Position numbers and translations under genes: made by a program. Below the pieces are notes generated by a model. The model did no database searches. It worked only from the letters and a program-made list of their open reading frames with translations, and was not told where the DNA came from. From contig JAGXGA010000027.1 in NCBI GenBank assembly GCA_024636975.1, positions 62,001-126,000 on the forward strand: a stretch of DNA of 64,000 nt. The letters run 5' to 3'. Every line of letters starts with the position of its first letter. Positions within the stretch are counted from its first letter, which is position 1. Positions 33,393-35,711 of this stretch are shown here, in pieces. The DNA comes from Mariniphaga sp. (GTDB taxonomy: Bacteria > Bacteroidota > Bacteroidia > Bacteroidales > Prolixibacteraceae).

Positions 33393-33465
33393 GCGGGAGT
33401 AGCTCAGTCGATAGAGCATTAGCCTTCCAAGCTAAGGGTCGCGGGTTTGAATCCCGTCTCCCGCT
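33393..33465 (+). tRNA. tRNA-Gly (anticodon TCC)
   Basis: A complete cloverleaf: acceptor GCGGGAG paired with CTCCCGC at 33458-33464 and discriminator T, a D-arm with AGCTCAGTCGATAGAGC, an anticodon loop CTTCCAA with TCC, and T-loop TTTGAAT. CCA is not encoded. It is followed by tRNA-Thr(GGT) and tuf, the same order as glyT-thrT-tufB in E. coli. Confidence 0.97.
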
Positions 33466-33526
33466 CAACAGAGATTGGAGTTTTAAGCCACGTTGCTTTT
33501 TACTCCTGTCTCTTTGTGTGTTTAAA

Positions 33527-33598
<72 letters not shown>

Positions 33599-33632
33599 CA
33601 ATTAATTTAGATAATAATTAAAAATTTGTATT

Positions 33633-34820
33633 ATGGCTAAGCAAACATTCGTAAGGGACAAAGACCATGTCAATATTGGTACCATTGGTCACGTTGACCA
33701 CGGTAAAACTACCCTGACAGCAGCTATCACAATGGTATTGGCCAAAAAAGGCCTTTCTGAAATCAAATCTTTTGATTCGATTGATAATGCTCCGGAAGAA
33801 AAAGAAAGGGGTATTACTATTAACACAGCACACGTTGAGTACCAGACTGAAAAACGTCACTATGCTCACGTTGACTGTCCCGGTCACGCCGACTATGTTA
33901 AGAACATGGTAACTGGTGCTGCCCAGATGGACGGTGCTATCATAGTAGTGGCTGCTACCGATGGTCCCATGCCGCAAACACGCGAGCATATCCTTTTGGC
34001 CCGTCAGGTAAACGTTCCTAAACTCGTTGTTTTCATGAACAAAGTTGATATGGTTGACGACGAAGAAATTCTGGAACTTGTAGAAATGGAAGTACGCGAA
34101 CTGCTCGAATTCTATGAATTTGACGGTGACAATACACCTGTAATCATGGGTTCTGCCTTAGGCGCTATGAACGGCGAAGCGCAGTGGGAAGATAAAGTAA
34201 TGGAATTAATGGATGCAGTTGATAGCTGGATACCACTTCCTCCACGTGAAGTTGACAAGCCTTTCCTTATGCCGGTTGAAGATGTATTTTCTATTACCGG
34301 ACGTGGAACAGTGGCTACCGGACGTATTGAAACTGGTAAGGTTCATACAGGCGACGAACTGCAGCTGATTGGCCTTGGTGCCGAAGGACGCAAAACGGTT
34401 TGTACCGGTGTTGAAATGTTCCGTAAAATTCTCGATGATGGTCAGGCTGGTGATAACGTTGGTCTGCTGCTTCGTGGTGTTGATAAGAAAGAAATCAAAC
34501 GTGGACAGATTTTGGCGAAACCTGGTTCAATTACTCCTCATACCCGATTTAAAGCTGAGGTTTACGTATTGAAGAAAGAAGAAGGTGGTCGTCATACTCC
34601 TTTTCATAATAAATACCGTCCGCAATTTTACCTGCGTACCCTTGACGTAACCGGCGAAATTCATTTACCCGAAGGTCGTGAAATGGTTATGCCTGGCGAT
34701 AACGTATCAATTGAAGTAGAATTGATTTACCCGGTAGCCCTTAACATAGGTTTGCGTTTTGCAATCCGTGAAGGTGGCCGTACCGTTGGTGCCGGACAGG
34801 TTACTGAAATTGTAAACTAA
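33633..34820 (+). CDS. tuf: Elongation factor Tu
   Basis: GTPase that delivers aminoacyl-tRNA to the ribosome, 395 residues. The P-loop GHVDHGKT is at residues 19-26, the G3 block DCPGHADY near 80-87, NKVD near 136-139 and the G5 SAL in MGSALGA. Domains II and III are complete, ending [12 protein letters not shown]. It lies in the cluster tRNA-Gly, tRNA-Thr, tuf, secE, nusG, with both tRNAs on the same transcript. Confidence 0.99.
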
Positions 34821-34844
34821 AGTTTTGCAGTAAAATTTTATAAA

Positions 34845-34866
34845 GTCCCGGGAGTGATCCCGGGAC
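34845..34866 (+). other. Perfect 9-bp hairpin after tuf
   Basis: Arms GTCCCGGGA and TCCCGGGAC surround the loop GTGA. It sits 25 bases after the tuf stop and 6 bases before the tRNA-like element. No T-run follows, so it is more likely an RNA stability or processing hairpin than a terminator. Confidence 0.6.
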
Positions 34867-34872
34867 TAATAT

Positions 34873-34928
34873 ACGGAAGAACTCAGATGGGAGTTTTTTC
34901 AGTGTAAGTTCGAACCTTACCTTCCGTA
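34873..34928 (+). ncRNA. tRNA-like element lacking an anticodon arm (tuf-secE spacer)
   Basis: Fifty-six bases fold as a tRNA without the anticodon arm. A perfect 7-bp acceptor stem (ACGGAAG, 34873-34879, with CTTCCGT, 34921-34927) carries discriminator A. A D-arm-like hairpin (AACTC, loop AGATGG, GAGTT) is joined by 8 bases to a perfect T-arm (GTAAG, loop TTCGAAC, CTTAC, 34904-34920). A normal tRNA would have about 17 more bases at this place. Many Bacteroidota have a tRNA-Trp between tuf and secE (family knowledge), so this may be its decayed or re-purposed descendant. It cannot decode, but could still be recognised by RNase P and RNase Z as a processing signal between the tuf and secE messages. 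Confidence 0.7.
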
Positions 34929-34949: not shown

Positions 34950-35141
34950 ATGAAATTAAAAGTATATTTGCAGGATGCCTACGACGAGCTTGTTCATAAA
35001 GTCACCTGGCCTACCTGGAAAGAACTGCAAAGCAGTGCATTGGTTGTAATGGTTGCTTCCTTTATTATATCACTCTTAATCTTCTTTATGGATCTGTCAT
35101 TCAGAAACATAATGAGTTTTATTTATGGATTGTTTTATTAA
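34950..35141 (+). CDS. secE: Preprotein translocase subunit SecE
   Basis: A 63-residue single-span SecE. The conserved cytoplasmic amphipathic segment DAYDELVHKVTWPTWKELQ comes before the membrane helix (residues about 30-50, SALVVMVASFIISLLIFFMD). It stabilises SecY in the Sec channel. It lies 21 bases before nusG in the standard order. Confidence 0.96.
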   Translation: MKLKVYLQDAYDELVHKVTWPTWKELQSSALVVMVASFIISLLIFFMDLSFRNIMSFIYGLFY

Positions 35142-35162: not shown

Positions 35163-35711
35163 ATGAGCGAAACAACAAAAAAATGGTATGTTCTTCGGGC
35201 GATCGGAGGAAAAGAAAAGAAAGTCAAGGAATATATCGAACACGAAATCGCGAATGGTGATCTGAAGGGTTTTGTTGAGCAGGTTTTAATACCTACGGAG
35301 AAGGTTTATCAAATCCGAAACGGTAAGAAAATCAGCAAAGAACGAAATTTTTTCCCTGGTTACGTACTTATTGAGGCCAGTCTGGTGGGTGAAGTTACAC
35401 ACACACTCAGAAATATTCCAAATGTTATCGGTTTCCTTGGCGACACCAAAGGTGGGGATCCGGTTCCAATCAGGCCGAGTGAGGTAAATCGTATTCTGGG
35501 TAAAGTGGATGAACTTGCTGAAACCGGTGAGGAACTAAACATTCCTTTCGTAGTGGGAGAAACCGTAAAAGTAATCGACGGACCATTTAACGGCTTTAAC
35601 GGAACCATTGAGGCAATCAATGAGGAGAAGAAAAAGCTGCAGGTAATGGTGAAGATTTTTGGACGTAAAACTCCTTTAGAGCTGAGCTTTATGCAAGTTG
35701 AAAAGGAATAG
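35163..35711 (+). CDS. nusG: Transcription termination/antitermination factor NusG
   Basis: RNA polymerase-associated elongation factor of 182 residues. The NGN domain starts KKWYVLRAIGGKEKKVKEYI and includes RNFFPGYVLIEA; the KOW domain follows near residues 125-160 with GETVKVIDGPFNGFNGTIEA. Length and both domains are normal. It couples transcription to translation through S10 and Rho (family knowledge). rplK follows after 21 bases. Confidence 0.98.
   Translation: MSETTKKWYVLRAIGGKEKKVKEYIEHEIANGDLKGFVEQVLIPTEKVYQIRNGKKISKERNFFPGYVLIEASLVGEVTHTLRNIPNVIGFLGDTKGGDPVPIRPSEVNRILGKVDELAETGEELNIPFVVGETVKVIDGPFNGFNGTIEAINEEKKKLQVMVKIFGRKTPLELSFMQVEKE

Follow-up and report, generated by a model that had tools for sequence, protein, structure and literature searches.

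The analysed window, a 64,000-nucleotide stretch of Mariniphaga sp. (GCA_024636975.1, contig JAGXGA010000027.1, positions 62,001 to 126,000), carries a gene cluster in which the spacer between tuf and secE holds a hairpin followed by a tRNA-like element of 56 nt without an anticodon arm. The features are as follows:

33393..33466 (+), tRNA-Gly(TCC), upstream in the same gene cluster
33527..33599 (+), tRNA-Thr(GGT), upstream of tuf
33633..34820 (+), tuf (EF-Tu; Pfam GTP_EFTU, D2 and D3)
34844..34867 (+), 10-bp hairpin
34873..34879 (+), 5' strand of the acceptor stem (ACGGAAG); RNase P cut predicted before 34873
34880..34895 (+), D-arm-like hairpin AACTC-AGATGG-GAGTT with GG in the loop
34896..34903 (+), 8-nt linker TTTTCAGT in place of the anticodon arm
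34904..34920 (+), T-arm GTAAG-TTCGAAC-CTTAC
34921..34928 (+), 3' strand of the acceptor stem (CTTCCGT, 34921-34927; 7/7 pairs) plus discriminator A34928; RNase Z cut predicted after 34928
34950..35141 (+), secE (Pfam SecE), the first gene downstream, with 21 nt between the discriminator and its ATG
35163..35711 (+), nusG (Pfam NusG)

RNAfold of 34873-34928 gives this structure as both MFE and centroid (-14.5 kcal/mol). However, the fold of the single copy is not decisive by itself, with a z of -1.57 and 13 of 200 shuffles as good. When the hairpin and flanks are included, z is -4.63 and 0 of 200 shuffles are as good. Only 1 of 300 shuffles of the window spacer reaches its acceptor plus T-stem score. 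ARAGORN finds only tRNA-Gly and tRNA-Thr in the window and does not call the element, nor any tmRNA. The Rfam tRNA model (RF00005) gives 24.2 bits, below its cut-off of 29, with the middle of the model being skipped, and nothing else in Rfam 15 came near.

Next, relatives were compared. A SecE search over 100 genomes of the same family (Prolixibacteraceae, by named relatives) found secE in 88, with tuf upstream in all 88. A first scoring of these spacers reached 10 or more in 60 of 88 real against 36 of 264 shuffled spacers, but picked wrong places in some of them since it was not anchored on the T-loop. A T-loop-anchored parse, which still misplaces some rows, and a covariance model were used instead. 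For the latter, 32 diverse elements were aligned with MAFFT. In this alignment 92.7% of cells are standard pairs against 25-46% when partners are slid, 10 of 12 acceptor and T-stem pairs change on both sides, and 42 double-sided cells are observed against 11.1 in shuffles. The covariance model built from them, R1, matches 86 of 88 spacers in 22 genera, the 32 by construction and the weakest, L130, at 24.8 bits. The two misses are L035, whose T-arm is replaced, and L108, a rearranged spacer that has lost the whole element, indicating that it can be lost. In an alignment of all 87 matched rows, one of which is a tRNA-Thr of locus L037, all 12 pairs change on both sides somewhere. Of 80 named loci, many of them records already among the 88, 25 have tRNA-Trp and the other 55 match R1 in the spacer, among them Draconibacterium orientale, Sunxiuqinia, Maribellus, Mangrovibacterium and Puteibacter. 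The element is thus real, as the preliminary description had it.

Over 242 congeneric pairs, identity is 0.92 in the acceptor, 0.91 in the T-arm, 0.80 in the first 16 nt of the middle (the D-arm zone) and 0.75 in the hairpin zone. In contrast, it is 0.62 in the rest of the middle, 0.61 upstream of the hairpin and 0.63 downstream, while random strings give 0.45-0.48. The linker therefore drifts like the flanking spacer. The T-loop is TTCNA in 85 of 86 members, the T-stem is 5/5 in 70, the acceptor is 7/7 in 36 and at least 6/7 in 72, and no extra base lies between T-stem and acceptor in 79. A D-stem of 3 bp or more is found in 86 of 86, but also in 63.4 of 86 shuffled middles, and GG is present in 85 of 86 middles against 70.8 on average and 80 at most in shuffles. 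The D-arm thus rests mainly on conservation. The distance from acceptor to acceptor varies between 48 and 74 nt through the middle (17-43 nt), with a linker of 3-25 nt. Pairing is not strict either: the 1:72 pair is unformed in 37 of 86, 19 of 86 have at least one U.U opposition in the acceptor, and nine have two (seven of one group, g10, and one each of two others, g4 and g5). Within the genus (four genomes), stems and T-loop are identical and so give no covariation. No 3' CCA is encoded, and C follows the discriminator column in only 52 of 86. Positions -1, -2 and -3 are each T in 70 of 86, so nothing is claimed from a U at -1. What is probably the Bacteroidota -7 promoter motif, TANNTTTG, occurs in 8 of 88 spacers, a count made without a control.

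The hairpin upstream of the element reaches a score of 10 in 84 of 86 members (32 of 430 shuffles), ending 0-7 nt before the element in 81 of those 84. In 28 diverse members, 9 of 11 pairs covary. The tail after it is T-rich in most members but AATAT in the window. A hairpin also precedes intact tRNA-Trp in 80 of 94 spacers of other families (38 of 470 shuffles; median gap 6 against 3). The exact motif AGTCCCGG...CCGGGACT is found at this one place in the genome, so it is not a general terminator sequence there. In family member L030, with a spacer of 219 nt, the AGTCCCGG-type hairpin is not seen and a longer insert stands in its place, while the tRNA-like element is kept (48 bits) with a degraded D-arm.

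To trace the origin of the element, the spacer was examined in 106 genomes of other families, out of 179 in the order sample in which SecE was found. tRNA-Trp is there in 105 of them: in 27 of 27 spacers of a first set (a 28th locus lies elsewhere), in 27 of 27 of a second set (seven being the same genomes), and in 55 of 59 more, plus three seen in part at a contig end. In the genome of the window, an intact tRNA-Trp(CCA) lies on another contig and is the only other R1 match at E 0.001 (37.5 against 59.4 bits; strict filters, 28 of 1634 candidates scored). The tRNA-Trp pattern is present in 92 of 100 family genomes and 80 of 81 good ones. ARAGORN calls tRNA-Trp in 20 of the 20 loci fetched from these, none with tuf or secE, and the tRNA-Trp anticodon loop CTCCAAAA is contained in 0 of 88 spacers. 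A FastTree of EF-Tu, SecE and NusG over 134 loci puts the 56 element loci of the family (55 named ones and the window) in one clade (support 0.998), with none of the 77 tRNA-Trp carriers inside.

The one exception, genome G283 of another family, has an armless element between tuf and secE as well (L296:461-514; R1 31.5 bits) and falls among tRNA-Trp carriers (support 0.937 with its neighbour). This is apparently a second, independent event, although it rests on a single genome. The tRNA-Trp of G283 was not found with the pattern used, nor among the 18 loci scanned of the 30 derived from its 55 tRNA matches. Many of its tRNA genes stand in equal-scoring tandem pairs or triplets (Val, Phe, Pro, Gly, Asp, Lys, Met and Arg; contigs C21, C40, C66, C14, C22, C2 and C74).

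Other tRNA-like sequences were detected in the genome of the window. At L013:5596-5627 and L013:5666-5721 (contig C64), in a phage-like region with AAA ATPase and DUF3164 genes nearby, lie an acceptor/T minihelix and a second anticodon-armless tRNA-like sequence (GGCACGG..CCGTGCC, T-loop TTCGAAC; Rfam tRNA 31.5 bits, above cut-off). ARAGORN calls neither, and the same stretch is in one IMG/VR contig. At L014:7299-7361 (contig C20), a partial tRNA match (35.8 bits) lies about 50 nt downstream of tRNA-Lys(TTT) and shares its 3' half, which looks like a duplicated tRNA end left by an integrating element.

Based on these data, the element is, with reasonable confidence, best explained as the former tRNA-Trp gene of the tuf-secE spacer. 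In the ancestor of the family, decoding was taken over by a tRNA-Trp gene elsewhere, whereas the copy between tuf and secE lost its anticodon arm but stayed under selection, most likely as a cis-acting RNA-processing signal. In a read-through transcript it would fold into the acceptor/T stack with a D-loop/T-loop elbow. RNase P is then expected to cut just 5' of the acceptor, leaving tuf mRNA ending a few nt after a stable hairpin, and RNase Z after the discriminator, giving secE-nusG mRNA a leader of 21 nt (median; range 13-111). According to PMC4975455, the anticodon stem-loop is dispensable for RNase P, and bacterial RNase P uses the acceptor-T stack and the elbow; RNase Z probably uses the same parts. 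Both RNase Z (308.1 bits) and RNase P RNA (234.6 bits) are encoded. In the absence of RNA data, it remains an inference that a read-through RNA exists, that it is cut and by which enzymes (conservation does not by itself name the enzyme), and that separating tuf from the genes downstream is the benefit. The preliminary description had proposed a tRNA mimic retained for RNase P/RNase Z cutting, at a place which in many Bacteroidota carries tRNA-Trp. The part of this that could be tested held, while the upstream hairpin, the family-wide spread and the case of G283 were not part of it.

Another possibility, though an unlikely one, might be that the released armless RNA of about 55 nt, possibly CCA-tailed, acts in trans as a small RNA, comparable to a bacterial mascRNA, with cutting being only its biogenesis. 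The joint conservation of T-arm, D-arm zone and acceptor is perhaps more than a bare cutting signal would need. However, the length varies, the linker drifts and no conserved single-stranded stretch for base pairing was seen. The place is not evidence either way, since the loci were found through secE. Equally unlikely, the hairpin and tRNA-like fold might act as a regulated or leaky terminator or 3' stabiliser of tuf mRNA, with no endonuclease cut needed. The strong, covarying hairpin followed by T-rich sequence would agree with this, but as a hairpin also precedes intact tRNA-Trp in other families, it is a separate and older part, and it does not explain the covariation in acceptor and T-stem or the TTCNA loop. 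EF-Tu autoregulation by mimicry of aminoacyl-tRNA is very doubtful. The position right behind tuf would suit it, and the acceptor-T arm is presumably what EF-Tu contacts. Nevertheless, EF-Tu would be expected to bind charged tRNA, whereas the discriminator column is C/A/G/T 36/34/11/5, which suggests no common charging identity, and G3.U70, the likely alanine signal, is found in 1 of 86. A plainly decaying pseudogene is highly improbable: although the element is by origin a broken tRNA-Trp and L035 and L108 show further loss, stems and T-loop are conserved far above linker and flanks, with covariation, across 22 genera. A working tRNA with its anticodon arm supplied or restored (split, spliced or an assembly error) can practically be dismissed, given the tRNA-Trp pattern elsewhere, the missing loop CTCCAAAA and the same form in 86 genomes, the only hint being an anticodon-arm-sized hairpin, TTTGC-TTATTTA-GCAAA, in the linker of one member (L034:1413-1483), possibly a regrown or never lost arm.

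It is generally hard to tell whether the place of a tRNA gene between bacterial genes serves mRNA processing, because the tRNA itself is under selection. Here, evolution seems to have done the control: decoding is provided elsewhere, and what stays conserved at the old place is the acceptor/T stack and elbow. This makes tRNA punctuation of bacterial mRNA directly testable, would extend t-elements to bacterial chromosomes and would give a family-wide natural set of minimal substrates for RNase P and RNase Z. More speculatively, and with little likelihood, the element might make the ratio of EF-Tu to the SecE/NusG genes downstream depend on free RNase P and RNase Z. At high pre-tRNA load, pre-tRNAs would compete for the enzymes, the element would be cut less and the fused message would change stability, so that an ex-tRNA would serve as a built-in sensor of tRNA-processing load.

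No bacterial t-element or tuf-secE tRNA-like element was reported in the titles or opening lines of abstracts found by full-text searches, which did not cover most papers of subscription journals. As described in PMC8662596 and PMC11658184, plant mitochondrial t-elements are tRNA-derived, tRNA-like sequences at gene borders that signal RNase P/RNase Z cutting of mRNA or rRNA transcripts and are transcribed, CCA-tailed and not charged. The present element differs in lying in a bacterial chromosome between two essential cistrons, family-wide and without the anticodon arm, its cutting being inferred. In Haloferax volcanii, a t-element before 5S rRNA is stated to be a substrate of RNase P and tRNase Z (PMC4326828), but this concerns an rRNA operon in an archaeon instead of an mRNA spacer in a bacterium. 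The mascRNA and menRNA of MALAT1 and MEN-beta (PMC4919922, PMC11658184) have a tRNA-like fold with a divergent D stem and anticodon region and are cut by RNase P and RNase Z. They belong to mammalian long non-coding RNA, whereas the present element is intercistronic and stands where relatives have a tRNA gene. The tRNA-like domain of tmRNA, a bacterial RNase P substrate (PMC4919922, PMC4125048), appears to lack an anticodon arm as well. However, tmRNA is probably charged with alanine and probably rescues ribosomes, while the element has G3-C70 in 84 of 86. Finally, the intact tRNA-Trp between tuf and secE in other families of the order shares the place and the acceptor/T architecture, often with a hairpin upstream, but has the anticodon arm without which the form described here would not be able to decode.
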